Shown here one piece after another: positions 8,741 through 38,600 of a stretch of 64,000 nt of DNA (its first letter is position 1; each line of letters opens with the position of its first letter). This DNA comes from Rhododendron vialii. Its lineage: Eukaryota > Streptophyta > Magnoliopsida > Ericales > Ericaceae. Where the stretch lies: the NCBI RefSeq assembly GCF_030253575.1, contig NC_080567.1:29028501-29092500 (forward strand). The letters are read 5' to 3'. The notes under the pieces were generated by a model that was given only the letters and a program-made list of their open reading frames with translations, did not search any database and was not told the DNA's origin. The position numbers and the translations under genes were made by a program.

Positions 8741-11700
8741 GGAATCCACACCTTCAAAGACGACGACGAAATCCAAACAGGCGAAGACATCAAGTACGAG
8801 CTCGAAAGAGCAATTGCCCAATCCAAGATTTCACTCGTAGTTTTCTCCAAAGGTTACGCTTCTTCCGCGTGGTGCCTCGATGAGCTGGTGAAGATCGCGG
8901 AGCGCCGGAGGGTTTGCGGGCAGGTTGTTTTGCCTGTTTTCTACGACGTGGACCCGTCTCATGTGAGGAAACAGAGTGGGGCGTTTTTACAAGCGTTTGG
9001 TAGGCATGAAGAGGAGGCGGGGACTGATGAGAAGAAGGAAAGGGTGAAGAGATGGAGGGAGGCTCTCACAGATGTTGCTAATCTTGGAGGGAAGGTTTTG
9101 GAAAATGAAGCTGATTGGTAATTTTGCTATGGAAATTAAGTATTATGCACCATTAGCCTCTCTTTCTTTTTTTTTTTGATAATTTTGCTAGGAAAAGTTA
9201 GTTTGTAAATTTTAATTTCATTTCTCAAGACATTGCTTCCTCTGCTTTGTAGGCATGAGTCGAAATTTATCCAGGAAATCGTTAAACAGATTTCAAGTAA
9301 GTTGAATCGCACAGTTTTGAATGTTGCATCGCACCTAGTTGGTATTGATGCTCGCGTCAAGAACATTAATTTGTGGCTACAAGATGGGTCGACTGAAGTT
9401 GGTGTATTGGCGATTTATGGTATGGGTGGAATAGGGAAGACCACAATTGCCAAAACTGCTTATAACCAAAACTTCGACAAATTTGATGGCAGTAGCTTTC
9501 TTGCAAATGTTAGAGCAGCTTCAGAACAACCCAATGGTTTGGTTCGTTTACAAAGGCAACTTCTCTCGGATATTTTGAAGAAGAAGGCCGAAAAGGTACA
9601 CAATGTTGATGAAGGAGTCATTAAGATTAAAAATGCTGTAAGCTGCAAAAGAGTTCTTCTTGTTCTTGATGATGTTGATGATTTAGATCAATTAAAAGCT
9701 GTAACGGGGATGCGACAATGGTTTTATCCGGGAAGCAAAATTATCATAACAACTAGACATGAGCGATTGCTCAAGGCTCATGAGGTGTGTGAGATGTATA
9801 AGGTTCAGGAACTGGATGATAAAGAATCACTTCAGCTCTTTAGTTGGCATGCCTTTGGACAAGACCATCCAATAGAAGGTTACGTTGAGCTCTCAGAAAG
9901 AGTTCTACAGCATTGTCCCTGTAGCACTTCAAGTACTGGGATCTTCAATGTCTGGAAGAAACATAGATGTTTGGGAGAGTGCAATAAAGAAATTGGAAGC
10001 AATTTCAGACAGTCAAATCCTTAAAAAGCTTAAGGTAAGCTATGATTCTCTGGATGAAGACCATGACAAGAACTTATTCCTCGACATTGTCTGCTTCTTT
10101 ATTGGAAAGGACAAAGATTATGTGGTTCGAATACTAGACGAATGTGATTTTTTCACCATAGTTGGGATTCAAAATCTTATTGATCGCTGTCTCTTAATGA
10201 TTGGTGAAGATAACAAGATGAAGACACACGACTTGATTCTGGACATGGGAAGAGAGATTGTTCGCCAAGAATCACCGGAGGAGCCTGGGCAGCGTAGCAG
10301 AATATGGAATCACAATGATTTGCTTTCTGTATTATCTGAGAAAACGGTAAGAAACATGTTTCTCCCTTCCATTTGGTGTTTTCTTGGATGATAAGTTACT
10401 TATCAGATTTACTATTATCAGGGTACTGAAACAGTCAAAGGCCTTGTGCTTGACATGCAAATGTTTATGGAAGGCCAGTCTGTTGGACCAATCTTCAGTA
10501 GTGAATCTAATGACGCAAAAAGAAAGCGTTCCCAAGAAATTCTTGACGAATTACTGTTGATAGACCGAGGTAGGTCATTGAAACGAAGACGGCTTGACTT
10601 CTCAAGGCACTCAATAGATGCTCTCTCAAAAATTGCTAATGAGGCAGGCTTGAAAACTGATGCATTTGCGAGGATGCACGAATTGAGACTACTTCTGCTC
10701 TATTATGTTAAGCTCACTGGCTGCTATAAGGAATTTCCTAAAAAATTGAAATGGGTCTACTGGCGCGGATTTCCTTTAAAATCTACACCCAATGATTTTC
10801 CTCTTGAAAGCCTGGTAGCTCTTGAAATACGTAACAGCAGCTTGAAACAAGTTTGGAGCGGAACCAAGGTATGCCAGATTAAATTCTCTACTTTTGTGAT
10901 TACATTAAGTAATGGAGAACTCATTTCATGTCGTTCATTGATTTCTCCTCGCTTTTTTTTACTGGAACAGGTGCTTAAGTTATTGAGATTTCTTAATCTG
11001 AGTCATTCCCATAGTCTTACTAAAACCCCTGATTTCTCCAGACTCCCTAAACTCGAAAGGTTGATTCCGAAAGATTGCATAAGATTGGTTGAAGTTCATG
11101 AATCCATTGGAGAACTGGAACGATTGGTTTTTCTGAATCTAAGAGATTGCACAAATCTTCGAAAGCTTCCAAAAAGCATTTGTCAGTTGAATTCCCTTGA
11201 AAAACTCATTCTCTCTGGTTGCTCAAATCTCATTGAGTTGCCTATTGAACTTGGAAAGCTTGAATCCTTGACAGTGCTCCATGCAGACAAAGTCGCTGTT
11301 AACCAATTGGTGCCTACCACCGGTGAGGTGAAATCATGGAAGGCTCGCTTCTGGTCTTGGGTATCCAAAAGAAGTAGAAGCCTAGAGTCCATCGGATTTG
11401 CTTTGGCTTCTTTATCACACTCATTAGTGAAATTAAGCCTTGCAAACTACAACCTTTCAAATGATGCCATTCCCATTGATCCTAGTAGCCTGTCTTTGTT
11501 GCAGTACTTGAATCTTAGTGAAAACCCAATTAATACCCTACCGGAGAGCATCAAAGGTCTTTGTATGCTCCAGGACCTTTGGGTAGATTCATGCACTGGC
11601 CTCCAATCACTTCCTGAACTTCCCTCGAGTTTAGTCAAGCTCAAGGCAGTACATTGCACATCTTTGAAAAGAATAACAAATCTACCAAACCTGTTGAATT

Positions 11701-12431
11701 CGCTGTTTTTGGATGTGAGCGAGTGTAACAAGCTAGTTGAGGTCCAGGGATTGTTCAAGTTAGCACCCATAGGGGACTTTTTTCCGGAAATGATCAATGA
11801 TTTGGGATTGTTCAACACGGAATTGATTGGAACCAAAGAGGTGGAATTGTTCAACAATATGACAAAAACAAGAATCAGATGTACTGTACAGGTGCGCTCT
11901 CTCTCTCTCTCTCTCTCTATCAAGCTAGTGGTTTTAAAAATCTTGTTTAATCAAAATCATATCAAGATGCCAAAATTGAGTAATGCAGGTTGAGAATTGT
12001 CAATATTTCTCATTAGAATCAGCATCTGGTTTAGCATAGCATCCGCATATAATGTGTCTTCCTCGCGTGCAGTCTTGGTATGCCTTATTAGGGAGAGGAA
12101 AAACCAGAGTTATATCAAACTTGGAATGCTATCGAGGAATGTGCTCCCACGAAATGAGCTCTCGATTAGTTTTCTTCGAGCTGTTGAGAGCTCATTTTTT
12201 TTTCCAAAACAAAAAATGAGCTCTCAATATCTCAAAGAAAACTCATTGTTAAATACGCACACAATCACGTTCACTATACATTTTTATGGACTGTAAAAAT
12301 ATTAATTAATACGTAAATAAAAATCAAATATGGGACTGTTAACTTTTAATATAAACACAGTCTCACAAAGAGAACTCATGCTTTGGGATTTCAACGATAT
12401 CAACTTGCGAAAGAAATGCAAAACTAACAAA

Positions 12432-13811
12432 TCAAACAAGCCAAAATTTATCTGCAACAACTTGAGGGCCCAACGCATCAAAATCGAGATCGAAACTGGG
12501 TAGCGGCTCCCATTGCAATATGGAAACTAGTTCTTCAAAATCCGCATCCATGTCCGAAAGCCTTTGTGAGTAATTTCCCTGCCTCTCCACTTCCAAAAAT
12601 TCTACTGAGAAATGTGTTGGGCCAAGCCCGGATAGGGTATGAGGGTCCGAGGCATCAAAATCTAGACCGAAACTTGGTAGCTGCTCCGACTCCAATATAG
12701 GAACTTGTTCTTCAAGATCCGCATCCATGTTAAGAAGCATTCGTGGATAGTCTCCTTGCTTCTCCATTTCCGAAAATTCTTCTGAGGAAGGTGTCGCGGG
12801 ACGCCAAGATAGGGTTTGAGGGAAACTTTGTAGCTGCTTCGACTCCAGTATAGGAACTCGTTCTTCAAGATCCGCATCCATGTCAAGAAGCATTTGTGAA
12901 TAATTTTCTTGCTTCTCCGTTTCCAAAGATTCTTCAGAGAAAGGTGTCGGGGGAAGCCAAGATAGGGTTTGAGGGTCCGAAGCATCAAAATCAAGACCAA
13001 AACTTCGTAGCTGCTCCAACGTAGGAACTTGTTCTTCAAGATCCGCGTCCATGTCAGCCGAAAGCATCCGCAAATGATTTCCTTCCTTCTCCGCTTCTGA
13101 AAGTTCCTTCTCCGCTTCTAAAAGTTCTCGCGAGTAAGGAACAGTTTGTGTTTCCGTTGCTTCCATCTTCTGTTCTTGCTCAGACTCCCTCCTAGCACGC
13201 TTTGCGGGTTTCCGGAGCATAACATCAGCATCATAAGCAGCAGCAGCAGCCTCAACATTCTCTGCTCTCCCCGTAGATTTCTTGGTGCACTTTACGTTCT
13301 TCGGAAATATCTTGGTGTCTTTTGAGTCGTATCTTCTTTTTATCCTACAAAGAACATATTCTCCTTTAGGCCATTGTTCGAACTCATGCATGATCCAACG
13401 GCCTTTTTCCAACGCTCCTGATTCGTCCGTGGTCTGAAAACACAGCGTCCTCTTATACCCTATCAGTTTAGGATCGGTCTGTTCATCGGATATTAGTTCA
13501 GGACTGGTCTGTCGGTCGTATATTGGTTCAGGACCGGTCTCTCCGTGCCACGAGCCACAGCCGGCCGTTCTAGCTATCCGTTTGTCGCTGCCGCGTGCCT
13601 TGATCAACTTGGTGAGAACGTAGACGCTGCCTTCTTCCCACGGGTCGTTCTTGGTGAAAATCTGCCACGGGGCTTTGTTTCCAGTCCCGTAAATCTCGCG
13701 CTCGAAAACGACGTCGCAAGGCAGGGCTTTACCCTTGCACTTCCTCCGAAGATAGTTGATGACAAGTTCTTGGTCTGTAGGTCTAAACTTATAACCCACT
13801 GCTACGCTCAT
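12432..13811 (-). CDS. NAC-domain-like transcription factor with C-terminal tandem repeats (NAC copy 2)
   Basis: Single-exon frame of 459 aa, close paralogue of the gene at 396-1829. NAC subdomain A reads GYKFRPTDQELVINYL; later WIMHEFEQW and EYVLCRIKRR follow. Relative to copy 1 it lacks the serine-rich DGNSTSSTRKQ piece, has a few extra residues after CRIKRRYD, a duplicated ELSEAEKE/ELLEAEKE step, and a shortened second C-terminal repeat that jumps from LQSF directly to PQTLSW. Four C-terminal repeats are still recognisable. The start at 13811 is preferred over 13841 by agreement with the other copies. Both this gene and copy 1 stay open although the third is broken, so they may be functional. 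Confidence 0.8.
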   Translation of the reverse strand: MSVAVGYKFRPTDQELVINYLRRKCKGKALPCDVVFEREIYGTGNKAPWQIFTKNDPWEEGSVYVLTKLIKARGSDKRIARTAGCGSWHGETGPEPIYDRQTSPELISDEQTDPKLIGYKRTLCFQTTDESGALEKGRWIMHEFEQWPKGEYVLCRIKRRYDSKDTKIFPKNVKCTKKSTGRAENVEAAAAAYDADVMLRKPAKRARRESEQEQKMEATETQTVPYSRELLEAEKELSEAEKEGNHLRMLSADMDADLEEQVPTLEQLRSFGLDFDASDPQTLSWLPPTPFSEESLETEKQENYSQMLLDMDADLEERVPILESKQLQSFPQTLSWRPATPSSEEFSEMEKQGDYPRMLLNMDADLEEQVPILESEQLPSFGLDFDASDPHTLSGLGPTHFSVEFLEVERQGNYSQRLSDMDADFEELVSILQWEPLPSFDLDFDALGPQVVADKFWLV

Positions 13812-13838
13812 GTCTCTCTCTCTCTCCATAATCTTTGA

Positions 13839-13870
<32 letters not shown>

Positions 13871-18149: not shown

Positions 18150-19737
18150 CAACATGTCCAAGGCATCAAAATCAAGACCGAAACTTGGTACGTAGCTGCT
18201 CCAAGTACTCCAATATTGGAACTAGTTCTTCAGTATCCACATCAACGTCAGAAAGCATCTGCGAATAATTTCCTTGCTCCTCCACTTCCGAAAATTCTTC
18301 AAAGAAAGGTGTTGGGGCACTGTCGGGCTGGGGAAGCCAAGAATCAAGACCGATACTACTTGGTAGCTGCTTTGACTCCAATATAGAAACTAGTTCCTTC
18401 ATCCGACATGGAAGAAAGCATTTGTGAATAATTTCCTTGTTTCTCCGCTTCCGAAAGTTCTTCCGAGAAAGGTGTTTGGGCAATCCCAGATAAGGCTTGA
18501 GGGTCCAACGCATCCAAATCAAGATCCGCATCCATGTCAAAAACTATTTGCGAATAATTTTCTTGCTTCTCCGCTTCTAAAAGTTCTTCCGAGGAAGGTG
18601 TTTGGGCAAGCCCAGATAGGGCTTGAGGATCCAACAAATCAAAATCAAGATCCGCATCCATGTCAAAAAGCATTTGCGAATAATTTCCTTGCTTCTCTGC
18701 TTCCGAAAGTTCTTCTGAGAAAGGTGTTTGGGAGAGCCCAGATAGGGCTTGAGGGTCCAACGCGTCAAAATCAAGATCCGCATCCATGTCAAAAAGCATT
18801 TGCGAATAATTTCCTTACTCCTCCGCTTTTGAAAATTCTTCCGAGAAAGGTGTTGGGGGAAGCCAAGATAGGGTTCGGGGGTCTGACGCATCAAAATCAA
18901 GACAGATACTTGCAAGCTGCTCCGACTCCAACATAGGACGTAGTTGTTCAAGATCCGCATCCACGTCGGAAAGCATCTGCGAATAATGTCCTTCTTTCTC
19001 CGCTTCCAAAAGTTCTTGCGAGTAAGGAACTATATTTTCTGTTTCTAGTGCTTCCACCTTCTGTTCTTGCTCATGAAACTCCTCCTTCCTAGCATGCTTT
19101 GCGGGTTTGCGGACCATTATAACATCAGCATCACTAGTAGCAACAGCCTCAACGTTCTCTGCTTTCCTCGTAGATTTCTTGGTGCACTTTACTATCTTGG
19201 TGTCTCTTGAGCTATCTCTTTTTATCCTACAAAGAACTTAATCCCCTTTAGGCGATTGTTTCCTAGTACTCGAACTACTATTACCATCCGGCTGCAAAGA
19301 GAACTCACGCATGGTCCAAAAGCCTTTTCCCATGCTCTCGTCCATCACTCCCAATTCGTTCGTGATCTGAAAACGCAGCATCCTCTTGTATCCTATCAGT
19401 TCAGGATCGGTCTGTTCGTCGTCAGGACCGGTCTGTTCGTCGTATATGGGTTCAGGACCGGTCTCTCCATGCCACGAGCCACAGCCGGCCGTTCTAGCTA
19501 TCCGTTTGTCGCTGCTGCGTGCCTTGATCAACTTGGTGAGAACGTAGACGCTGCCTTCTTCCCACGGGTCGTTCTTGGTGAAAATCTGCCACGGGGCTTT
19601 GTTTCCAGTCCCATAAATCTCGCGCTCGAAAACGACGTTGCAAGGCAGGGCTTCTGCACCCTTCGACTTCTTCCTAAGAAAGTCGATAACAAGTTCTTGG
19701 TCTGTAGGCCTAAACATATAACCCGCTGGTACGCTCA

Positions 19738-19738
<1 letters not shown>
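18150..19738 (-). pseudogene. NAC copy 3, decayed, with expanded 42-residue repeats
   Basis: The NAC domain starts at 19738 (MSVPAGYMFRPTDQELV) and stays open to 19238, where the codon pair for EY in EYVLCRIKR has become a TAA stop. The reading frame continues past the stop (about 19117-18815, with PAKHARK, ETENIVPYSQ) and meets a second stop after EEFSKAEE. Behind that, three to four copies of a shorter 42-aa unit (MDADLDFDALDPQALSGL, TPFSEELSEAEKQGNYSQM) replace the 59-aa unit of copies 1 and 2. A truncated 166-aa NAC-domain-only protein is still possible; such short forms can act as dominant inhibitors in other NAC families (inference). Confidence 0.8.

Positions 19739-19741
<3 letters not shown>

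Positions 19742-19777
<36 letters not shown>
19742..19777. repeat. CT microsatellite in the 5' region of NAC copy 3
   Basis: Pure TC dinucleotide run of about 35 bp just upstream of the start. Shorter interrupted runs sit at the same place in copies 1 and 2. Confidence 0.85.
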
Positions 19778-19779
<2 letters not shown>

Positions 19780-19812
19780 CTCACTTTGTTTTAGTCCAAG
19801 TAATGTGATGGG

Positions 19813-19821: not shown

Positions 19822-20002
19822 GCACAATAGAAAGTCGGCTATGTATGTATTAGAGTAGTACCGTATTATCTCCATCCTTGTCCCCCACAAAAATAATTGT
19901 AATTTTTTGGAAAAAAAATACGTCGTGCATATATATATATATATACACTCCGGTTCTGATCCAGGATCCCGGATTTGGGAATGGTCCGGGACTGTGCTGT
20001 GA

Positions 20003-20026
20003 GCCGTTGGATTAAAATCCAACGGC
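20003..20026. repeat. Perfect 24-bp palindrome near the MULE left end
   Basis: GCCGTTGGATT, AA, AATCCAACGGC forms a perfect 11-bp hairpin stem 60 bp inside the terminus, repeated at 28675-28698 in the right arm. A symmetric subterminal site of this kind could bind a dimeric transposase (inference). Confidence 0.75.
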
Positions 20027-20230
20027 CTGGATTAAAAAAGGGAAAAAAGGCTCCAATAATTACACTTTTTCCCCTCCCCCTCACACTTTCCCCCTTCCCC
20101 TTTTTTCTCACCTCTTCGTTCAAACAGAGTCCAGACCAGAGAGACAGACGAGAAGAGAAGAGAAACGCGAAGAGCGAGGAGAGAAGAAGAACGAAGACGA
20201 AGACGAGACGAAGACGTTCACGAACGACGG

Positions 20231-20232
<2 letters not shown>

Positions 20233-20302
<70 letters not shown>
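20233..20302. repeat. CT microsatellite, MULE left arm
   Basis: Pure dinucleotide run of about 70 bp; the right arm has only about 27 bp of GA (28443-28469). Confidence 0.9.
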
Positions 20303-20308
<6 letters not shown>

Positions 20309-20460
20309 GAACTTGAACTCAAAAAATCTCGAACTCAAAATTTCTGAATCGGAAGAAATTGCTCTGAAATTAGGTGATTTTTTTAGGACGAACGACGAAG
20401 AACGAAGAGGAGGAGAAGAACGAAGGAGATCGACTGGAGAACGAGGTATATTTTTCTCTG

Positions 20461-20796
20461 TCATATTTTTCTCTCTCGTTCAAAAAAATTAAAATCTGGT
20501 TCTGATTGGCCCGACTTCCCACCTGAAATGCCCCATTCCCCAGTTTGATTCTTGGGCTCAGCATTGGAACCACCTGAGCCACCCCAACCTGCAGTTTGAT
20601 TCAAGGGTTTAGCTACTGATTTCCCTGCAGTACCCCATCCTCCAGTTTGGGATTTTTCAGCTTTAGACCCACCTGTGCTACCCCAACCTGCAGTTTGATT
20701 TAAGGGTTCAGGTTCTGATTTGCCTGCAGTACCCCATCCACCAGCTTGATTACTGGGTTTCTCAGACTTAGAACCACCAGCATTAGCCACCGGCAA
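20461..20796 (-). pseudogene. WG/GW-repeat coding fragment, left block 1
   Basis: A minus-strand frame of 111 aa consists of about 22-aa repeats such as NQTAGWGSTGGSKAE, QTGGWGTAGKS and NQTAGWGGSGGSNAE, with Trp-Gly pairs about every 20 residues. Such WG/GW arrays are the Argonaute-binding hook of RNA-directed DNA methylation proteins (Pol V subunit NRPE1 C-terminus, SPT5L/KTF1). Which of these is the source I cannot say. It reads outward, toward the element end, and runs into the arm sequence after KSGQSE. There is no upstream promoter or N-terminal domain in view; the ATG at 20796 may be chance. Confidence 0.6.
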
Positions 20797-20925
20797 CGTC
20801 GCTCGATCCAGGTAGTCACAACCTCCGTTACCTTAAAAATTGCTCGTGAGAAAATCATACTTTTTATGGGTTTGTGCTGGATTTGTACTTAATTTGAAAT
20901 TCAAGCCCTAGGGTCAGTTGTTATA
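20782..20925. repeat. Direct repeat inside the MULE, copy 1
   Basis: About 140 bp (GGCAACGTCGCTCGAT, GTAGTCACAACCTCCGTT, GGGTTTGTGCTGG, AATTCAAGCCC) recur with about 85 percent identity at 21338-21480. WG block 1 lies just left of this copy and WG block 2 just right of the other. Confidence 0.8.
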
Positions 20926-21337
20926 TATCAGAATCTTTATCGATTCAAGTCGAGTGAGTGGGGGTTCGATTATGCTGAGTTGTTTGTTGTGTAAAATTCG
21001 TAAAGAAATTTACTTTAAAATCTTTGCACTTTTTTTAAAAAAAATTTCTCGTCTGGCTTCCCTCAAAAAATAGTTTTGTGACGAAAAGCATGCGTACAAA
21101 TTTTTTTTTTACTTTTTTTCTGGTATGGAACTAAAGACTTCCATGAGAACTTATTAGGAATACACGACCAAAGCCAAGAACACTTGCTTTTCACGCGGAA
21201 GCCCTCTGATTTTGTTCGTAAAAGTCAAAACTTTGCACGACTCGATCAGAATAATCACAGCAGCTATTATTTTTAACTTTGTCCGAGTATTAGAAACCAT
21301 CGGCTGAGGCATTCTATCAAACAAACCGAAGTGTATC

Positions 21338-21480
21338 AAGTGCGGCAATGTCGCTCGATTCCGGTAGTCACCAACTCCGTTTCCTTAAAATTACTGGTGA
21401 AAAAATTATATCTTTTCAAGGGTTTCTGCTGGGTTTGTGCTTAATTTGAGTTTCAAGCCCAAGGGTTAGTTTGGTGTTAT
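21338..21480. repeat. Direct repeat inside the MULE, copy 2
   Basis: Second copy of 20782-20925 (GGCAATGTCGCTCGAT, GTAGTCACCAACTCCGTT, GGGTTTGTGCTTAATTTGAG). The sequence between the two (20926-21337) holds no recognised gene. Confidence 0.8.
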
Positions 21481-21665
21481 GCGTTTAAGTGGGCAGAACT
21501 CCCACCCGTAGACCATCCTCCAGTTTGAACCTTTGGTTCTGCCTTAGAAACACCAGTATTGCCCCACCCACCAGTTTGATTTTGAGATTCAGCTATAGAA
21601 CCACCTGTATTACCCCAACCCCCACTTCTATTCTTGGGTTCGGTGTAATTAGAACCACATCCACG
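21480..21665 (-). pseudogene. WG/GW-repeat coding fragment, left block 2
   Basis: The minus-strand frame reads TEPKNRSGGWGNTGGS, ESQNQTGGWGNTGVS and PKVQTGGWSTGGS, three further units of the same WG-repeat family as 20461-20796 and in the same orientation. It is separated from block 1 by the duplicated 140-bp segments, so the captured piece was internally duplicated or interrupted. It is too short to be a gene alone. Confidence 0.6.
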
Positions 21666-21980
21666 ACGAAGATGGCAATTATGTTTGGCTATAATTAGGA
21701 TTTTTTGTTCTGTTACTCGATTAGGGCTTTTTGTTATGTTGTTATGCAAGTTTAGGGATGTTAATTTAGAAACAAAATCAAAATGTTTGGCCGATATTGT
21801 GTTGATTTGTTGAAAAATAAGAGTTTTGATGGGCCATTTGTTTTCATACGCTTTGGTGCCACTGTGAATGTTGACAAAACACTAAATGTTAGCTTATAAA
21901 TTTTATTGCTCATATACTAATTCGATTTGATAGTCTTTGCTATTTCCAGTTACGCATTCTTAAGAAGGAACGAAGAAGAA

Positions 21981-24474
21981 ATGGAAGAAGAACAAATTTC
22001 TAATGTCAATCCAACTCCCTTATTTCCACCACCACCACTGCAAAGGTATATTTCTCTCTCTCATGTAGAAAAATAGGATAGTTACAATCACAATGGTTTA
22101 TTTATTCTTTTGTCTTTTGGTGGGTAGAATGCAGTCTGTAGATGATATACAACTACTATCACCGTCACCTTCTCAACCTTTTGAGGAGTCTGCTAATTCT
22201 TCTGAAGCACTTTACACTCCTGAAGTCAAAAATGAGGTGATACCGAAAATTGCACAACAATTTAAAAGCTTAGAGGATGTTTTCAAAGCTTATAACAATT
22301 ATGCATTCGAAGCTGGTTTTAGTGTGCGAATCAATTCTAGCAAGACGGATAAGAATCGTGAAACCATTAGGAAAGAGTATGTTTGTTACAAAGAAGGGGA
22401 GAGTAAATGTTCTGAGGCCAGTCAACGACAACGGGGTTTAACTAGGGAGAAATGTGGTGCAAAATTAACAGTAGTAAAAAATCGGTCAGGTGAAGGGTTT
22501 GTTGTGACCCAATTTGTGGAGGGGCATAGCCACCCTCTTACGACGCCAAGAAAGAAGCATTTCTTGAAATCTCATCGTCGAGTGTCAGTTGCACAGAAAG
22601 CGTTAACGCAACAACTAGCAGCTGCAAATGTGTCAACCAGCCAACAAATGAGTGTTTTAGAGTTGCAAGCTGGGGGTCTCGAAAATATTGGCTGTTTACG
22701 GCGAGATTTTTATAATTCTCAAAGGGATATGAGGAAATATGTAGATGGACATGACGCCAACATGTTGAAAGAGCTTTTTGAGACTGAAAAAGAAAAGAAT
22801 CAAGGTTTTACGTATACAATCGAGGAAGATGATGAGCACAGGCTAACCCATTGTTTTTGGGCCGATGCGACGTCTAGGAAGTCATATCAGTATTTCGGTG
22901 ACGTGGTGGTATTTGATACTACATATAACACGAACAAATATTGCTTGATGTTTGCACCTTTATTAGGGGTTAACCACCACGGGCAGACAACGCTTTTTGG
23001 GTGTGCCTTCTTAAGTGACGAAAAAAGTGAATCATTTGAGTGGCTTTTCAAGGAATTTTTGAAAGCGATGCCTGGACCACCGCCCAAAATGATCATAACT
23101 GATCAAGATCCGGCAATGACAAGAGCAATTGCTTGTGCTCTTCCCAATACGTTTCATAGATATTGTATTTGGCACATTGTTAGTAAATTTTCTGAGAAAA
23201 TAGGTGCATTGGCATACAAAGAACATTATGAAGAGTTCAAGAAATGCATTTGGAATTCCGAGAGCCCTGAAGAGTTTGACGCAACATGGGCATATATTGT
23301 AGGAAAATCGAACTTGTCCACCCATCAATGGTTGCAGGCCATGTACGAAATTCGTGGCAGATGGGTTCCTGCATATACGAGACACATTTTCTCTGCCCAC
23401 ATGACAAGTAGTCAAAGGGCTGAAATTTCTCATGCATTCTTCAAGAGGTATTTGTCTGACAATAATTCAATGTATGAATTTGTGACACGGTTCGAAAGGG
23501 CACTTGCACGTCTACGACATAATGAATTAGATTTGGACCACAAAGATATAAATGAGAAGCCAGTCCTGAAAACCTCATGGTCGATGGAAAAGAAAATGAG
23601 TGAGTTATACACACTCCATTCATTTAAGAAATTTCAGGAGGAAATATTTCAGGTTGGTGCATATGTTCTTACGATACTACATGAGGATGAATGTCGCTCT
23701 GTGTGGAAGGTTCATAGGGAAGAAATGGAAGGTTCGAGAGGTCGTGAGGTGTTGGTAGACAAGTCATCGAACCGTGTGAGTTGTAGTTGTCAGATGTTTG
23801 AATTTGACGGAATTCCATGTCGACACTTGTTGGCATACTTGTCTTTAATGCAGATTAGAGAACTCCCTAGCACATACATTTTGCTAAGGTGGACTAAAAC
23901 TGCAAAAGCAGGCAGAGTTTTTGATGACTTGGGCAGTCATCAAAAACTCTTATGTGACAGTTCACTTTTGGTGAGGCGACAAGGTGTCTTTCAACTTGCT
24001 TATACAGTTCTTGATGACGCTGTATTAGATGAAGAAGGAACTGAAATTGTGCGAGAAGCATTGCTATCTAGTCAAAAGAAGATTGCATTTATGAGGGGTT
24101 CTCGTCAAGATGGTTCAACGAGTTCTATCCAATTGCCTATTTCTCTCGGAAGCCAACATGGTTTGAAAGAACCACTGAAAGTTAGGGCAAAGGGTTGTGG
24201 TAAGCGTTTGAAAGGAGGGAAAGAGAAGGCCGTCAAGAAAAGTAGGAAATGTCATGGGTGTGGGTTATTGGGGCAGTCGCATGACAAAAGAAATTGTCCG
24301 AAGCTTATGAACACGTAAGTGTACTTGTCTATTTATAAATTAAACTTGATTGTTTACATGCATAATATATTGTACTTGTTGTCTTATTTTTTTAGGTCTT
24401 CACAAGATGCTACTATGTATGACGACGACGACGACGACGACTTTGCCGATGAATGTATGTGTTTGCTTAAGTGA
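21981..24474 (+). CDS. FAR1-type Mutator (MULE) transposase
   Basis: Three exons (21981-22045, 22128-24314, 24396-24474) give 776 aa without a lesion. In order: Pro-rich start; FAR1-like DNA-binding zinc domain about 65-155 (EYVCYKEG, KCGAKL, GHSHPL); MULE transposase core with catalytic acids readable as Asp285 (FDTTY), Asp347 (TDQD) and Glu454 (SQRAEISHAF); SWIM zinc finger about 572-595 (CSCQMFEFDGIPCRH); CCHC-like knuckle about 727-747 (KCHGCGLLGQSHDKRNC); Asp tract near the end. The last exon can be read through to TGA at 24472-24474; a splice at 24454 would stop at once instead. FHY3/FAR1 light-signalling factors share this architecture, but the flanking 0.7-kb inverted arms argue that this is an element-borne, possibly active transposase. 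Confidence 0.88.
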
Positions 24475-26210
24475 ATTACGGACTTCAAATAGGTAGTCAA
24501 ATACGAACTTGAATGCTAATTTTTTTTATGTTTCAGGAACTATATGGGTTTGCGGGTATGGAGATGACATTAGCAAGGCACAGGCTACATGATATGTGTT
24601 TTTGAGGATGTTGTCTGCTATTGGATCTGTTTTAATAGGTCCCATCTTATTTAATAGGTCCCATCTCTGGGAATGCCCTGAAGGACGACATTAGCATTAG
24701 ATTTTCATGCTTTTACTGAAGTGGTTCTGGTTGTTTCACTCTCCATTCTGGTCTAATTTTAGAACTGTACTGTATAACTCTTACTGTAGGAGGATCGGGT
24801 TATGGTAATTCATGATGTGTTTATTTATATCAACTTCCCAATCTAGAGCCGGGCCAATGTTAGATGATCCTTTCAGGATCACACTTCTAAACCTTGTCTA
24901 CAATAATCACTTGTAACGGGGGAAGAGGTAAAATGGGAGAAAAAAGATACACAATGATTGTAAAATGGATGTCTTTTGTGAACTTTGGAGTTTTTAAATT
25001 GGAAGCGAAAAAAGATACACAATGATATTGCTGATCATGTTCAATCTCCCCGAGCAAAGAGAAGTGGTTGGTTGAGTTTTGCTTCCGCTACTTTTATACT
25101 GACAATAGAAAAAAATTAATTGATGATATGGCAAGGGATTCAGTTGGTCATTAATTTTAAAGATCATTGCTTTGGGTGTTTGATTTGTTTCTAGGAAGCA
25201 TCAAAGTATTTTTTATAACTCCTGTGTTCGGGGACCAATCTCATCGTTCATTTGCGGGGGTCCTTATTAAAGTTAGAGCAAAACTTTTCATACATTGACC
25301 CTAAAAGAGTTGACAACACCTCAACGTTTTTTAACCTAAAGCCTTAGTTAGGAGAGAGCAAGCCCCTAAGTCATTGGCCTTGTGGACACCCCATTGGTCA
25401 AACCATTCCTTTTTTTTTAATGTTACACCTATTCTTTGGGATGCCAAAATACCGATACACGGCAGAATCAGAGAGATGAGTTTGAACAAAACATGGGATC
25501 TCTAAACAGTGTATATGGAAATTTCCGCGCAAATTAGAGATGGAAAAAGAAGACCAGCTGTCCTTGATATGCATTTCTGTAGCAGAACACTACCAAAGGG
25601 GATGCGATGGTCCACCAACCCAATGGCTTGTAACTAAGGTAATTATAAGATCAATAGAGAAATTTAGGGAATAAGGATTGTCCAATTTGAGCTTTAATGA
25701 AGTTTGTCCAACTCTTCCACGGAAGAGAATAAATATTCCCTAGAAGAGTATATTTTAAATCCGGACCATTAATTGGTTACAGTAGAAGTTCCATACGCGA
25801 AATCGAATCCGGCACTGAAATACATATAATATTTACGCATACGTAAAAGTCAAGACACAAATGCCATCCACAGTACAAAAGATCAGTATCGCCTAGTTCA
25901 ACAGAAGTGACTTCAAGTTCACTAGTATATCCACCATCGCCACCACTGATATTCTTGATATCCATAGCAGACCCAAATGCAAAACCTCGGTCTACAGTTA
26001 ACTTTGTCCAAGTACCCCTAACCTACAGTACACTCCCTTCTATATTCACAAGCTTTCCACTGTCCAAGAAATCAAAGTGCAAGTTTCAATGGTGGCACAT
26101 TCCAGTAGCTCACAAAAATACTATTCAAAAGCGGTCAACTACACAATCATGCGGCCAAATGCTAGTTCCGGTTAAGAGATACTACTACTACTACCACTAC
26201 CACTACTTGA
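24475..26210. other. Internal MULE DNA without a recognised gene
   Basis: No domain recognised. A minus-strand frame around 25777-26030 is open for about 85 codons (GFAFGSAMDIKNISGGDGGY) but shows no known motif and may be another captured scrap. Confidence 0.45.
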
Positions 26211-26212
26211 GA

Positions 26213-26780
26213 TCACTGGCTGCTTTTGCCACACATGTACGACACAACACAAAAAAAAATAATCCAAAGGTAATTCCAGTTCATTTTCCCCTCATTTCTC
26301 ATTCTCTTTCGCATTGCATCAATCTCCTTCTGCATGGCTTCAATCTTCATCTGCATTGTGATTGTTGTCCTCTGCATTTCTTCACTAATGCTCATGGATG
26401 CTGAACTCTCACATTGTTCAACAGTCCTCACAGCCTTTTTTTTTTTCTAAACCATCATTGGCCCCAAATCAGCCCTTCCTTGCGAAATACAAGGCTCATA
26501 CCAGCAAAAAAAACCACAATCTGAAGAACGTTCGACCTAGGGTTTTTTAAACACAATCCAAAAAACACAATAACAACTTAGGTTTCAACTCCAACGAACA
26601 ACAATAGAATAACTTGGGGCAATGCATGCAGCTCACCTTATAATTTGCACATCCGAAGAACCTTCGACCTGGGTTCTTTTGTGTTCCAGATTTCCTCAAT
26701 ATTGTTGGTTCTCCGCAATAACAAAAGATCCCAAAATCGGGATCACCACTTCCATTGTTATCCCAACTACTTCCTTCCAT
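26213..26780 (-). pseudogene. GRF zinc-finger / coiled-coil / TM protein gene inside the MULE
   Basis: Exon 1 starts at 26780 (MEGSSWDNNGSGDPDFG) and carries the first half of a GRF finger (CYCGEP, GRRFFGCANYK) up to a GT at about 26638. A likely acceptor CCTAG near 26538 continues in frame with SSDCGFFCWYEP, completing the Cys pattern. The frame then hits TAG at about 26448, immediately before an 11-A run, yet continues in the same frame with a coiled coil (MQMKIEAMQKEIDAMRKRM) and a C-terminal membrane segment (NYLWIIFFCVVSYMCG). Small GRF-finger plus coiled-coil plus TM proteins are abundant in plant genomes. One in-frame stop separates finger and coiled coil; either it is a pseudogene or the two halves are separate products. 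Confidence 0.65.
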
Positions 26781-27963
26781 TAAATGGGTTGCTTGTCTTA
26801 TGATTCTCCTCCTATAATGTAAAAATTGGCAAAGAGTTATCTAATTCTAAGGCCACAGAGTGTGCCGCAATATGTAAATGTCTTTGCAGTAGTAAAATCA
26901 AGTATTGAGAATCAAATCCAAGTCACATAGGGTGCTCTTTGCCATAGTTCACATAATACTAAAAGACTACAGGGGAGGTAGCATCCAATTTTTATTAGGT
27001 AAAATCCTAGATGTTATGTGAGTACAAAAATTCAAAGTAACCATGCTCAAGTGAAACTTCTAAGAATGTAGTTTCATGAAGCATGAGTCAACATAGAGGG
27101 AGAATATAAGAGAATATGTGAAGCACTTGATCCAGATCTCAGACCAATGTCGTAGGATAAAACATGGGCCCATTCACTGAATTTAAACATCCATCTAAAG
27201 AAAATAATTCATCTTAGAATTTGAATAAATGTGGAGGAAAGGGTTGGATTATGATAATACTAAAAATAAAAAGTTTCACATTCAAAATTTACACACCCAT
27301 ATGAAGCCCGTTTATCAGTCAAGAATCCCCCAGCCATAACCTCGTGTCCGGTCCCTTCATGAAAACAAAGGGTCAAGTGGATCATATTGTTTAGACTAAG
27401 AAAAATCACTCCTTTTTAGTACCCAAAGCCACCATCTTCGAGTTTTTTAGGACAGATGCCATACTAATCAAAATACTTTGCTAATTTCGAATCCCAAAAA
27501 AAAAGCCCTAATTTTTTGCCAATTTCGAATGGGCAAAAGAAGCCCTAACCATTTTTTTTTTTGGGATTATCTAATCATCGTATTATATTCAATCCGTCAA
27601 GTTTTATTCATATAAAGCTAATGAGGAAAACCAATCCTATTGTCTTTACAATCAAAACACAGCACTTGAAAAAAAAAAATGATTATATTGCCTTTCTTTC
27701 ACGCAGCGAAAAGCAGCTGGTTTCACAAGGAATGAGAAATCAAACAATAACTGATAAATAGCACAAAAAGCTCAAATAAGCAACAAAAAGGATGCATAAG
27801 CTGTTAGGGTTTCCAAAATCACACATCTACTAACACAATTCCAGAATCGAAATCAAAACCCTAACAAAAAAGGGTTCAAATCAGTCAAACATTCGTTCTT
27901 AGTCGTTTGTCCTAAAAAAAGAAAAACCTAATTTTTTAGAAAAATCTTCCGAAGCAGAAGCTG
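26781..27963. other. Internal MULE DNA without a recognised gene
   Basis: AT-rich, with A/T homopolymers and short frames only. A 25-bp segment TTTAGAAAAATCTTCCGAA at about 27936 recurs at 28226, bracketing the WG fragment of the right arm. Confidence 0.5.
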
Positions 27964-28758
27964 AACCCTTGAATCAAACTGCAGGTTGGGGTGGCTCAGG
28001 TGGTTCCAATGCTGAGCCCAAGAATCAAACTAGGGAATGGGGCATTTCAGGTGGGAAGTCAGGCCAATCAGAAGCTGAGTTAAGTAGCTGGGGAAAAACC
28101 AAAAAGGAAGGGGCAATAAGTTGGAGAAATTCCATGGATACCCAGGAGAGTACTCCTGTTATGGGATCCGGAGAAAATTCCTGGGGCAAACCAGCAAGCG
28201 GAAGCAAATCAGTGTGGAATAATTTTTAGAAAAATCTTCCGAACCAGATTTTAATTTTTTTGAACGAGAGAGAAAAATATGACAGAGAAAAATATACCTC
28301 CTTCTCCAGTCGATCTCCTTCGTTCTCCTCCTCCTCTTCGTTCATCGTCGTTCGTCCTAAAAAAATCACCTAATTTCAGAGCAATTTCTTCCGATTCAGA
28401 AATTTTGAGTTCGAGATTTTTTGAGTTCAAGTTCGAGAGTTCGAGAGAGAGAGAGAGAGAGAGAGAGATACCGTCGTTCGTGAACGTCTTCGTCTCGTCT
28501 TCGTCTTCGTTCTTCTTCTCTCCTCGCTCTTCGCGTTTCTCTTCTCTTCTCGTCTGTCTCTCTGGTCTGGACTCTGTTTGAACGAAGAGGTGAGAAAAAA
28601 GGGGAAGGGGGAAAGTGTGAGGGGGAGGGGAAAAAGTGTAATTATTGGAGCCTTTTTTCCCTTTTTTAATCCAGGCCGTTGGATTTTAATCCAACGGCTC
28701 ACAGCACAGTCCCGGACCATTCCCAAATCCGGGATCCTGGATCAGAACCGGAGTGTAT
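27964..28758. repeat. MULE right inverted arm
   Basis: Reverse complement of 19943-20609, longer by a 172-bp segment (about 28071-28242) that encodes the C-terminal part of the WG fragment, so the right arm is the more complete version. Contains the palindrome 28675-28698. Confidence 0.85.
27966..28229 (+). pseudogene. WG/GW-repeat coding fragment with natural C-terminus, right arm
   Basis: A plus-strand frame ends in TAG at 28227-28229. It starts with the same units as the left arm (NQTAGWGGSGGSNAE, EWGISGGKSGQSE) and continues with SSWGKTKKEG, SWRNSMDTQES, NSWGKPASG and VWNNF before the stop. The extra 50 residues look like the end of the source gene's WG platform. As in the left arm it reads outward. 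Family assignment (NRPE1 or SPT5L/KTF1-like) is from repeat style only. Confidence 0.6.
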
Positions 28759-30392
28759 GTATATATATATATATATGGTATATATATATTTGAATTTCTT
28801 TGCACCAATATAAAGGGCTTGATTCGTTCTTTAATTTGGTGTAAAAAAATTATAAAAAATATGCATGAAAGTATTTTATTTTCCAATCCAAAAATTTCAT
28901 TGACTTTTTGCAGAAGAAAAGTAATTTAGGATGGTTGAGTAGCACAAAGTATGTTCCTAATGGAAACAAAAAAACGCTGACTTTGGGTAATTAGTTGGAA
29001 CGGATCAGTCGGTGGTGTTGGATTAACTTGTGGAGTAATTATTCAGCGGTCACATGGTGTTGCAATACTCTTGTCCACCACACGTTTTTGCAGAGTTGAT
29101 ATACTTTGTATTGAGCCCCACAAACATGTGTGGCAGATAAAGATGTTGAGGCATCACGTGACGGTGTTTCAACAACAATAATAATTTTTTGTTAAGCTCC
29201 TGCGACAACGGCTGGGTTGTTTGATTGCCGGTTTCCTTTCTCCGTTTGGATTGGCCAAAGGTGGCATGGTGGTGATCGGAGGCGGATGGTCGGCGGTTTG
29301 GATTTGGTTGCTGTCTGATTGGTGGCCGACGGGCTAAAGATTTGTAAAGGTAGGTTTTGTTTTGGGTTTTTGGGGGTTGGGCTTGCTTCTTTGATTGTGC
29401 TTAATTGTAAGATTTAGATTTTTTAGATCATCTGGTGTTTTGAGCTTCATCTGTAATATTTGGACTTTGAGGCCTTTAAATGTTTTGGGCTTTGCCCTTA
29501 GGAGCGTATGGGTTTGTCTCATCTGATTGTTTTATTCAACCTTTAGTCGGAAATCTCTTTCTCCATCCCCTTAATAAAATGTTACTTTTACCAATAAAAA
29601 AAAATAGTAATTATTTTTTCTAGATTTTGTGACGGTGTAGTGGATTTCCACTAATTAAGAGTTGGGTGTATTCCGAAATTCTCTCTCGTTCCCAAACTTC
29701 TACACCAAATAGAACGTGCCAATTAGTTTTAGGGCAAAAATGTTTTGTAGAATTTTTCCTCATTAATCAGATCTAATTTTTAATTCATTTTCTGAATTTG
29801 CACAATCTACCTTATAAAACACATGTTGATCCAAGGGTTGAGATTCATTTGATTCAAGGGCTGATGTGTGCTCTCCAACTCTCTTAAGAAAATACCCACA
29901 CTCTTGTAAATATATAACAAAATGTCATCAGTTCTTTTTACCGACTGCTCGACTTCTAGTATTGAGATAAAAAAACAAAAATATATTACAAAAATACTCG
30001 TGCCTACGGCACGAGCAAACACTAGTTCTAGTGAAATTGTCCCACGTATGATGCAACCCCATTCAAATGATAACTTTTTCCTCCCTTTGAGGATAAATTT
30101 TTGGGTGCCGGGTGGTCGTGCCCCTGTGTGTGTCCGAGCAGCGTATCCGAGCTATTCAAAAGTGTGTTGGACGGTTCAGATTGAAACTCACTCTCTCTAT
30201 GTCCTCTTACCCCACCACTCTCTCTCCTCTTTCTCTCTTCGAATTTGAAATGAATGGCCTGAATGCGCTGCTCGGGCACCACGTGATGCCTTGCTCTGCA
30301 CCCAAAATTTCTCCCTTTTGAGAGTAGAATTTGATAACCACCAATCAATAAGTGTGGATATTATACGTTCAATGGTAAAGAATTTAAATTTT
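28759..30392. repeat. Segmental duplication, copy C (right of the MULE)
   Basis: From TTCTTTGCACC the sequence follows copy A from about 2055 onward, but only in islands: 28795-28955 (A 2055-2210), 29640-29790 (A 2895-3030) and 30030-30392 (A 3066-3262). The intervening 28956-29640 is unrelated and lacks the CCGAACC tract. Similarity ends exactly where copies A and B begin the CACTA-like terminus. Copy C is older and more diverged than A and B. Confidence 0.75.
30095..30310. mobile_element. 216-bp MITE inserted in copy C
   Basis: Ends AAATTTTTGGGTGC and GCACCCAAAATTT form inverted repeats. CTCCCTTTGAG before and CTCCCTTTTGAG after the element look like a target duplication of about 10-11 bp, and the matching place in copies A and B (about 3118) has one such word and no insert. 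Likely Mutator- or hAT-derived. Confidence 0.7.
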
Positions 30393-34750: not shown

Positions 34751-35663
34751 ATGAGTTTAAAATTACCTTTCTTTCTCCAAAAAGTTTTTTTTAGAGAGGG
34801 GAACGCCACCTTATTCTGTTTGGAATTACGGTTAAAGACTGTTCAGTTCAACTCCTCTCTGAATTACTCCATGGTTAAACCTAGAAGAAGCATAATCCAA
34901 GAGTGGCAGTCCTACAGGTTTCTTTCCCAGTCGATAAAACAGCATATTCAATTTCGCCGGGGAGCAGAATTAGGGTTCCGATTGATCGGTTGGGTAATTT
35001 TCGCAATCTCGCTACTTCTTGTTGTTGATCGTCGTCTTCTTTTCTGTTTCACATTTGTGCTAGTTTGTGTTATGCTCAGTTCACGCTTTTTTTGCTTCCG
35101 TCCACTGGCTTTTGCTTGTGAGGAAGGAAGAGAAGAGAAAGGGTCGTAGTTTCATACCAAGTCTTGCTAAAAGTGATGAGATTTGGTGAGAAACAAACTG
35201 GACCCGATAGAGATTCGTCCTTTTGTTTATTTTCCATCTTTTTTCCACCATTACTTATATCTTTCTTTAGCTATCCAAATAAGGTGAAAGGTTTCTTCTT
35301 TCTTTTCTTTTCTCACCATCCAAAGGTGTTGTAAGAACACAAAAAGTAGAAGAGAAAGAGCAAGAAAAAATGAAAAAATAAAAATTCAGCATGACAGTGG
35401 GGAAGGAACCCAGTGATTAGATTCAATGCACTTCTAATTGATTTCCTTAGTTATTTCTGTTTGCTTTCTGCAAATTATCATTTCATTTGAATGTATTGCT
35501 GATAGCATTATTTGAGTTGCTTTATGACTTCGATTATATCGCATCTTTACTTTCGTTTTGATTCTAAAACAAGCCTAGTGCCCTTTCAACTGAACAGAAA
35601 TTGCATTTTCTTCCAGATATTTGTCCAGTAACTGCTAAGAGGACACAAAAAACCTCCTCTTCC
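34751..35663. other. Upstream region of TNL2
   Basis: Contains a 132-codon open stretch (34751-35149) with hydrophobic, biased composition and no recognisable domain. I read this as promoter and 5'UTR sequence. A T-rich tract followed by CTTCCAG at about 35615 could be the end of a 5'UTR intron. Confidence 0.4.
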
Positions 35664-38600
35664 ATGTCTCAGTGTACTTACCAGGTGTTCTTAAGCTCCA
35701 GCGATGACACTAGTATCAACTTTTCAGATCACCTTTATACAGCGCTGGTTCACTCTGGAATTCACACTTGTCGAGCAGATAATGGAATTGAGAGAGGGCA
35801 CAATATGCAGTCAGAATGTCAACGAGCCACCGAGGAATCCAGGATTTCAGTAATTGTCTTCTCGAAAGGCTATGCTTCTTCGGGACAGTGCCTTGATGAA
35901 CTTCTAAATGTTCTCCAACGCCGGAAGGCAGTTGGACATAGAATATTGCCGGTGTACTACAATGTGGACCCATCTGAAGTTGGGAAGCAGACTGGGAGTT
36001 TCGGAGAAGCGTTTGCTAATCATGAAGAACAATTCATTGCAGCCACAGATGGAAGGGAAAAGGATTTGATGGAAAACGTCGAGAGGTGGAGGGCAGGTCT
36101 CAGGGAAGTTGCAAAATTAAGAGGGATGGTCTTGCAAAATCAATCTGATGGGTAAATGTCCCGGAATTCTTTATAAGGCATCATTGGGCTGTATGTGCCC
36201 GTAATTTCATTCAGATGTTGCCCACACATAGTTTTGCAGTATTTACATAAAGATTCTGACAGGAACAGGATACATGTTAATTAGAAAAGAGTTCGAAATC
36301 AGTGTAGAAATATTGTTCTAGCAGCTGGTAGTTTTCTTGATAGTTTCCCTTTCCATGTGTTTGTAAGAAACATGAAATTCTTACCCTGCTCTTTTGTTTT
36401 TTGTTTTGTTGATCAAAATCTGTAGGCATGAATCGAAGTTCATCCAGGAAATTATCAAAGAGATCTCGAACAAACTGAATCGTAGGGTCTTGGGTGTTAC
36501 CCAATACCAGATTGGAATTGATTCTCGAGTTGAGAGCATAAATCATTGGTTACAAGATGGGGCAACTGATGTTGGCATTGGGGTGATAGCCGGGATTGGT
36601 GGAATAGGGAAGACAACCATTGCCAAAACTGTCTATAACTCAAATTTTGACAGGTTTGAATGCAGTAGCTTTCTTTTAGATATTAGAGAGACTTCTAAAC
36701 AGCCCAATGGTTTGGTACGTTTACAAGAACAACTACTTTCAGATATTTCGAGGTGTGGAAAACTAAAAATTGGCAGTGTTGATGAAGGAATGATTAAGAT
36801 TAAAAATGCAGTAAGTTACAGAAGGGTTCTCGTTGTTCTTGACGATGTGGATCAACTGGATCAATTGAATGCAGTCCTTGGAATGCGAGACTGGTTTTGC
36901 CCAGGAAGTAAGGTTATTATAACAACTCGTTATGAGAAACTGCTGAAACCATATAAAGTTGACGAGACCTTTAAGGTTAAGGAATTGGATTATAATGAGT
37001 CACTGCAGCTCTTCAGTTGGCATGCCTTTGGACAAGCACATCCTATTGAAGGTTTCATGGAGTACTCAAAAAGTGTACTCCAACAGTGCAAAGGACTCCC
37101 TCTGGCTCTTAAACTGTTGGGTTCTTCTCTCCGTGATAGAAGTGCAGAGGAATGGGAGACTTCATTGGAAGAAATGGAATCATTCACTGGAAATCAGATC
37201 CTACAAACACTGGCAATTAGCTTTATGTCCTTACAAGATGATCACGACAGGAAATTATTCCTCCACATTGCTTCATTTTTTGTTGGGAAGGACAAGGAAT
37301 ATGTGGTCAAAATACTGGATGAATGTAATTTCTATACGACAGTTGGAATTGAAAACCTTGTGGGTAGAAGCCTCATAACAATTGGAGAAGGGAATAAGTT
37401 GATTATGGATCAACTGCTCCGCGACATGGCTAGAAGAATTGTACACCAAGAGTCACCCAATGAGCCTGGGAGACGTAGCATAGTGTGGGATCATGAGGAT
37501 TCTTTCCATGTATTGAGTAACAAAACTGTAAGAAAGATCCTTCCTATTGCACCCTCAAAAGAAGAGATAAAAGAAACACTAGCTTCCTTATTTGTGTGTA
37601 TGTGCTTCTGTAATTATGTTTGCATGCTTTTTACCTGACAATTCTTTATGCGCTACTAGGGTACAGAAAGGGTTCAAGGCCTCATCTTTAATATGCGTAT
37701 ATTGAGGAAAGCTAAATCTTCCATGTCAGCTACCAATGTTAGTCATACAAAACGAGAACACCCGATACATGATAGTCCAGACTGGTCATGGAAACGGCGT
37801 CGTCTTAGCTTGTTCTCCTGGCAACGTCTATCCACTGCATTTCCAAAAGTTTTTCCCTCGGCAAAGGACGTAAACTTCAGAACTGATACTTTTTCAATGA
37901 TGCCCAAACTAAGACTGCTCCAGCTTAATTATGTGCAGCTTGGTGGAAGCTATAAAAGGTTCCCAAGGAAGTTAAGATTGTTGTGCTGGTATGGGTTCCC
38001 TTTAAAATCTATTCCTGATGATTTCCCGTTGGAGAACCTGGTATCTCTTGATTTTCGCCATAGCAATTTGGAACAACTTTGGAAGGGAACAAAAGTATGG
38101 TTAATCACCTTCCCTGTTTTCATTTGTTGTTTTATTTTGTCATACGAGGCATGTACAGATTTGAGATGAGTTTGTAAGAACTCATTATCCTCTCTTTCTT
38201 CTTCCTTCCCTCTTGCAGTTCCTCAGAGTGTTGAAATTTCTGAATCTCAGTTACTGCCATAGCCTTGTCAGTACTCCTGACTTCTCAGGACTTCCTTGCC
38301 TTGAGAGACTATGGCTCAAGGATTGCACAAGTTTGATTAAGGTTCATGAATCAGTTGGGGACCTTGAGAAACTAGTTCTTTTGCATCTAAAAGGCTGTAA
38401 TAATCTTAGGAAGCTTCCTAGAAAAATTGGGCAGCTAAAATCGCTTGAGAAACTGATTCTCTCGGGTTGCTCAAAGCTTGAAATGAATCCCATGGAGCTT
38501 GAGAAATTAAAGCCTCTGACAGTACTACATGCTTATAGAACAGCTATAACTCAATTATGCTTTACCAGTAGAAAGAGTGATCCATGGCCCAAAATTCTCT

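Follow-up and report, generated by a model that had tools for sequence, protein, structure and literature searches.

The question raised by this locus is whether a gene for a FAR1-type protein, lying between two inverted repeats, belongs to a mobile Mutator-like element (MULE) or is a host regulatory gene that such repeats flank by chance. The locus lies in a 64,000-nucleotide stretch of the Rhododendron vialii genome (assembly GCF_030253575.1, contig NC_080567.1, positions 29,028,501 to 29,092,500 of the forward strand), hereafter the window, in whose coordinates all positions without a contig name are given; an earlier note on this DNA had read it as an apparently autonomous, possibly young MULE. 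Our results identify a discrete insertion with an intact transposase frame, present in four near-identical copies and inserted in TA tracts, and thus a MULE. Further, the evidence strongly favors a recently multiplied element that targets TA microsatellites, displays a FAR1 (Jittery-like) architecture and carries two convergent genes. The kind of element, FAR1-type and TA-targeting, is known, and its second gene and a cargo derived from a host SPT5L/KTF1-like gene distinguish it as a variant of that kind.

The MULE measures 8816 bp; its tip ATACACTCCGG opens at 19943 and the reverse complement of the tip closes at 28758, and, at a tolerance of 3 mismatches, the window contains the 20-base tip 2 times, compared with 0 occurrences in 100 shuffles. 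Long terminal inverted repeats (i.e., the arms) are found at both ends, with 595 of 602 aligned bases identical when the CT microsatellite between the first two of their matching blocks is excluded. The first block is identical at 290/290 bases (19943-20232 versus 28469-28758), the next at 192/195 (20305-20499 versus 28244-28438), and the last, which is a captured host segment, at 113/117 (20500-20616 versus 27957-28073). Since this last block is host DNA, the part of each arm that belongs to the MULE amounts to ~0.52-0.56 kb, followed by ~0.12 kb of host sequence; the right arm holds an extra 170 bp (28074-28243) missing from the left one. The features of the locus are given below, contigs of the genome being abbreviated as C1, C2 and so on, with the window on C11.

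19933..19942, plus strand: TA tract to the left of the MULE, ATATATATAT, a possible target-site duplication of 10 bp, from the flanking sequence
19943..28758, no strand assigned: whole MULE, from its ends, arms and empty sites; the ends recur on C4, C9 and (one end) C1
19943..20499, plus strand: left arm, MULE-own part, with the CT microsatellite (20233-20304), a candidate splice donor (20445/20446) and a putative promoter and 5' exon
20500..20788, minus strand: SPT5L/KTF1-like fragment of the left arm (WG/GW repeats), 282/289 identical to C3:14750846-14751134
20789..21485, plus strand: second captured segment, 98% identical to C7:14351020-14351715, with a direct repeat of 129 bp, duplicated at C7 as well
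21486..21658, minus strand: SPT5L/KTF1-like fragment, where the donor resumes after a gap of ~32 bp, 95.4% identical to C3:14751167-14751336
21981..22045, plus strand: transposase coding exon 1, predicted splicing
22128..24314, plus strand: transposase coding exon 2, with FAR1, MULE core, SWIM and C-terminal CxxC...HxxxxC
24396..24474, plus strand: transposase coding exon 3, with the Asp-rich tail; a different splice may be used downstream
26213..26536, minus strand: second gene exon 2, with the rest of the GRF finger and, by eye, a stretch resembling a coiled coil and then a hydrophobic segment at the C terminus
26637..26780, minus strand: second gene exon 1, first part of the GRF zinc finger (PF06839, 2.1e-7)
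27929..27958, plus strand: inner copy of a ~30-bp MULE stretch, a direct repeat around the capture; single copy in C13, C12 and C6
27955..28224, plus strand: SPT5L/KTF1-like fragment of the right arm, 265/270 identical to C3:14750695-14750964
28220..28248, plus strand: outer copy of the ~30-bp MULE stretch; single copy at the uninterrupted site of C13, C12 and C6
28244..28758, minus strand: right arm, MULE-own part, which putatively provides the convergent second gene with its promoter and 5' exon
28759..28768, plus strand: TA tract to the right of the MULE, GTATATATAT, a possible target-site duplication of 10 bp, from the flanking sequence

A short hairpin (GCCGTTGGAT...ATCCAACGGC) was observed in the arm tip (19943-20060), whose fold as single-stranded DNA is better than that of shuffles (z -2.94). 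A search of genome contigs with the tip returned no match, and neither did searches of viral contigs and of Rfam at gathering scores.

The transposase gene assembles from three coding exons, with splice sites predicted from the sequence, into 776 amino acids with no stop. Pfam domains above cut-offs were obtained for MULE (PF10551, 4.1e-30), FAR1 (1.2e-16) and SWIM (1.3e-8); residues D285, D347 and E454 are those that we take to be the acidic triad, based on the motif context of the family, while C368/H371 and the SWIM ligands C574/C576/C586/H588 are in place, and a C-x2-C-x6-H-x4-C motif at residue 730 precedes the Asp tail. A structure predicted for a 729-residue piece with no alignment had a mean pLDDT (predicted local distance difference test) of 32 and was uninformative. 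The transposase also matched unrelated chains, viral glycoproteins among them, at E values of 0.0086 or weaker, which we attribute to chance. The boundaries proposed in the earlier note (19943..28758) are therefore exact, and the close match of the arms, the intact 776-residue product and its combination of FAR1, D-D-E core, SWIM, zinc knuckle and Asp tail were all recovered; its arm length of ~0.7 kb is real as a length, but includes the host DNA described above. The second gene and the captured host segments do not figure in that note.

In order to place the element in its genomic context, the R. vialii genome itself (532.6 Mb, 13 contigs) was searched. Seven perfect 290-bp arms were found among 40 arm matches (40 of 62 candidates scored), and these belong to four elements on four contigs: the window copy on C11; a copy of 8780 bp at C4:36905080-36913859; a copy of 4588 bp at C9:29659472-29664059, which lacks the equivalent of window 21443-25683; and a copy on C1 whose other end runs into N and in which the GRF gene is lacking. 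The window copy differs from that of C4 at 12 of 8684 bases and from that of C9 at 11 of 4442, and the three are separated by 0.14-0.25%; compared with C1, there are 8 mismatches in 5482 aligned bases of clean segments, the C1 totals of 0.53-0.64% including misaligned stretches around the deletions of that copy. More distant relatives on C6, C12 and C13 show a similarity of ~94-97% across the main internal blocks and of 82-89% across the arms; a stretch on C5, which matched one arm only, was dropped as a relative. The transposase search yielded 63 matches (60 of 1084 candidates scored), with identities descending stepwise from 100% (C11, C1, C4) to 52%. Separately, a subfamily with 74% identity to the window transposase is represented by two intact frames (C5:40731744-40733966 and C11:18109299-18111521), which differ at one nucleotide, so this subfamily was recently active too.

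At substitution rates of 5e-9 to 1.3e-8 per site per year, the 12 differences in 8684 bases would correspond to roughly 50,000-140,000 years. Dating by the arms, as had been suggested in the earlier note, is unsafe: the two arms of the window copy differ at 7 positions, 4 of which are common to C4 and C9 and are thus older than the insertion in the window, leaving the arms unusable as a clock. Conversely, the copies with the same ends that the note proposed to look for do exist (C4, C9, C1), and the identity between copies agrees with its suggestion that the element is young. Its term autonomous holds as far as the intact transposase is concerned, but autonomy is not proven, as the second gene of the window copy has a premature stop.

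Both the insertion site and its unoccupied equivalents can be recognized in the window. The MULE occupies a TA tract that precedes the ATG of NAC3, the third of three NAC-like genes, by 204 bp, and, once the flanks of the element are joined, the upstream regions of the other two paralogues align with them and run continuously through the site, with identities of 161/182 (left) and 147/168 (right) for NAC2, and of 167/192 (left) and 142/168 (right) for NAC1. The immediate flanks, ATATATATAT and GTATATATAT, match at 9 of 10 bases within the TA repeat, the MULE criterion being a target-site duplication of 8-11 bp. TA runs of at least 10 within 30 bases of the tip were present in all 7 arm flanks of the young copies, and runs of at least 9 in 17 of the 24 flanks examined, i.e., those of the 40 arm matches with a locus and a match reaching within 4 bases of the tip; as a control, 19935 stretches of 30 bases were drawn at random from the rest of the window, and 23 of them contained such a run. 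The element thus targets TA microsatellites for insertion.

Concerning the neighborhood, the three NAC-like genes are arranged in tandem (18356-19780 on the minus strand, with paralogues at 396-1970 and 12432-13868), and the one beside the MULE resembles a pseudogene, because a stop after SPKGD breaks its frame at a point that is open in the two remaining copies. Besides the NAC repeats, the window contains frames resembling resistance genes of the TIR-NB-ARC-LRR type (8693-11993, 35568-39235 and 44736-48425); one piece was scanned (NB-ARC, 1.2e-27) and the remainder was assigned by eye.

The second gene, convergent to the transposase, encodes a GRF zinc finger. In the window copy it is interrupted by a premature stop at 26447-26449; this codon is open in C4, C9 and the more distant C6, and the stop is also found in the more decayed C12. 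Convergent GRF matches were located no more than 9 kb downstream of 18 of the 63 transposase matches (17 loci) and upstream of none, whereas random placement yielded a mean of 0.165 and a maximum of 1 (200 trials). This count took in all 63 transposase matches and 102 of 152 GRF matches, those left out being second matches of loci already included, apart from a few others. The pairs extend to transposases of only 61% identity, and the GRF gene is therefore a constituent of this MULE lineage and not a passenger acquired late. We know of no anti-silencing role for the GRF protein.

Regarding the cargo, both arms contain pieces, in inverted orientation and 95-98% identical to the source, of an AGO-hook exon stretch of a host SPT5L/KTF1-like gene on C3; together, they cover 642 bp within one exon frame (C3:14750695-14751336). 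The fragment was found solely in the four young copies and at the C3 donor (18 matches, 10 of 10 candidates scored), and the C6, C12 and C13 relatives lack the capture, with the site uninterrupted and one copy of the ~30 bp that bracket it. Among the 266 stop-to-stop frames of the window (at least 60 amino acids), the three captured frames rank top in WG/GW content. On the basis of its sequence, the donor conforms to an SPT5L/KTF1-like gene, in which the domains NGN (8.8e-14) and KOW5 (1e-6) are accompanied by a putative WG/GW AGO-hook; its closest solved relative is RDM3 (KTF1/SPT5L, 2.1e-24, versus 3e-14 for SPT5), and its 1037-residue exon frame has 42 W, 34 of them adjacent to G. The NGN piece of the donor also matches four other places (C9 68%, C6 55%, C12 54% and, over a short part, C2 69%). 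Twelve CCHC motifs interleave with the WG/GW repeats in the donor exon frame (C3:14750.0-14753.1 kb). Solved structures by themselves did not suffice to assign the WG repeats: phmmer gave no match, alignments to NRPE1/KTF1 were mostly weak when compared with shuffles in which W and G were kept fixed (z -0.6 to 3.1), and the best of them, of the right-arm piece to Brassica NRPE1, would have pointed wrongly to NRPE1, the donor being settled as SPT5L-like by the genome search. The AGO-hooks of NRPE1 and SPT5L tether AGO4 during RNA-directed DNA methylation (RdDM) (PMC10991848).

A second captured segment interrupts the left-arm fragment. Its source locus (C7:14349000-14353500) displays a partial internal tandem duplication with an offset of ~550-600 bp, which suggests that the capture went from C7 to the MULE.

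With the integration of these findings, the following working of the element is proposed. By analogy with MuDR, each arm would supply a promoter and a 5' exon, from which the transposase and the GRF gene would be transcribed inward; the candidate splice donors match between the arms (20445/20446 and 28298/28297), and candidate acceptors precede each start codon. The FAR1 domain of the transposase would bind the arms, and D-D-E catalysis would excise the element and insert it into (TA)n sequence. As for the SPT5L fragment, it probably entered one arm through break repair that copied host DNA, as indicated by the ~30 bp of duplicated MULE sequence bracketing it, and would then have been copied, inverted, into the other arm. 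In this arrangement, the SPT5L pieces would be part of the presumed first intron of each gene, in antisense orientation, and arm-driven transcripts would consequently include stretches complementary to SPT5L mRNA; in total, 421 positions of the element (252 left, 169 right) have an exact 21-base match in the SPT5L-like gene, all of them antisense to inward transcription.

The domain order of FAR1-type transposases is common to FHY3/FAR1/FRS proteins, so the FAR1-MULE-SWIM architecture would equally suit a domesticated FAR1/FRS regulatory gene with chance flanking inverted repeats, as would the purifying selection acting on the coding lineage, with ratios of nonsynonymous to synonymous substitution (dN/dS) of 0.21-0.38 for comparisons with dS >0 (some compared copies contain stops, and those codons were omitted). 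Purifying selection is likewise expected of a transposase lineage, and a single host gene accounts poorly for perfect arms in four elements on four contigs, for nearly identical transposases at three places, for an empty site in the NAC-like paralogues, and for insertion into TA tracts. We thus regard domestication as exceedingly improbable: the extra copies and the empty site contradict it, and they uphold the mobile MULE preferred in the initial reading. Several observations nevertheless weigh against the recently multiplied, TA-targeting, two-gene element proposed here. As both flanks are TA runs, a target-site duplication is possible but not demonstrable; a TA run of 9 is missing from 7 of the 24 examined arm flanks; 45 of the 63 transposase matches have no GRF match within 9 kb (150 of 212 candidates scored), the GRF gene being either too diverged for the search or absent; and, from the sequences of the young copies, none was seen with both genes undamaged, so current activity may be over. 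A dead or near-dead family, in which a single burst was followed by decay of the last copies, leaving the window MULE immobile today, would explain why every one of the four young copies bears a lesion or gap, namely the GRF stop on C11, the SWIM change C586Y on C4, no transposase on C9 and no GRF gene on C1. This account appears rather unlikely given the intact transposase and arms of the window copy and the small divergence among C11, C4 and C9, as well as in the clean segments shared with C1. The C4 copy is the mirror image of the window copy, with the third SWIM ligand lost and the GRF gene uninterrupted, and the damaged copies might complement each other in trans.

A further alternative attributes a function to the cargo, whereby arm-driven antisense RNA would be processed into small interfering RNAs (siRNAs) that lower SPT5L and weaken RdDM, aiding the spread of the MULE. 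The uniformly antisense 21-base matches and the confinement of the fragment to the young copies and the donor are consistent with it; moreover, RdDM silences the noncoding regions of VANDAL elements, which evolve anti-silencing (PMC10398659), and captured sequences are described as possible siRNA reservoirs against donor genes (PMC13317346). However, such siRNAs would hit the MULE itself too, its copy number is low (four), and, according to the same source, MULEs commonly capture pieces of host genes, as a rule without function (PMC13317346). Counter-defence therefore seems improbable, and the SPT5L cargo is most likely a passenger. Quite improbable, likewise, is the broader proposal in which the antisense AGO-hook cargo would act in counter-defence via small RNAs and the GRF protein, with its hydrophobic tail, would be a second, so far unrecognised helper of FAR1-type MULEs.

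The significance of this family, as a recent mobile set, lies in the joint presence of intact ends, an empty site, several copies, TA targeting and a convergent second gene kept across subfamilies. It further makes a precise transduplication visible, with its donor, its junctions and the site before capture, and the captured gene comes from a pathway that silences transposons; the feedback of captured silencing genes on silencing is thereby directly testable. Among the open-licence papers listed, which are a part of those matched, we found neither a GRF zinc finger joined with Mutator-like elements, nor SPT5L, KTF1 or an AGO hook joined with MULE capture.

Among known systems, AutoMuTAnT of Medicago truncatula is a MULE described as putatively autonomous; its transposase is Jittery-like, and copies related to it lie in (TA)n microsatellites (PMC4486113). 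By description, the window MULE resembles AutoMuTAnT/MuTAnT in its insertion in (TA)n and its Jittery-like transposase; AutoMuTAnT has 4873 bp and a single open reading frame of 833 amino acids, and the Results of its report mention no captured host gene (PMC4486113), whereas the window MULE has 8816 bp, a convergent second gene and host DNA in its arms. The Jittery group (group 36, dicots and monocots) is tabulated with FAR1 N-terminal and SWIM/CCHC C-terminal domains, terminal inverted repeats of 39-292 bp and one open reading frame (PMC6446971). The window transposase shares this architecture at both termini; the arms are longer (~0.52-0.56 kb), and the GRF gene departs from the single reading frame, which is a tabulated property and not a strict definition. 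In maize MuDR, too, a convergent pair of genes is enclosed by long arms that contain promoters (PMC3310237, PMC6446971), and the GRF gene of the window MULE resembles mudrB in its position; the differences are that this second gene encodes a GRF zinc finger and that the transposase is of the FAR1 type.

The presence of a host gene fragment (the SPT5L-like exon) recalls Pack-MULEs, in which acquired sequence may lie in extended terminal inverted repeats (PMC3310237), but the window MULE is not a strict Pack-MULE because it encodes a transposase, and its donor is an RdDM-type factor. VANDAL/VANC MULEs carry more than one gene, as does the window MULE, and are in conflict with RdDM (PMC10398659, PMC6446971, PMC13317346); no VANC gene was identified in the window MULE, though no search was aimed at VANC. 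Finally, the light-signalling regulators FHY3/FAR1 descend from FAR1-type transposases, and the FHY3/FAR1/FRS proteins are transposase-derived transcription factors of the host (PMC6000157, PMC13306707); unlike the genes for these factors, the transposase gene of the window lies between arms and is multicopy.

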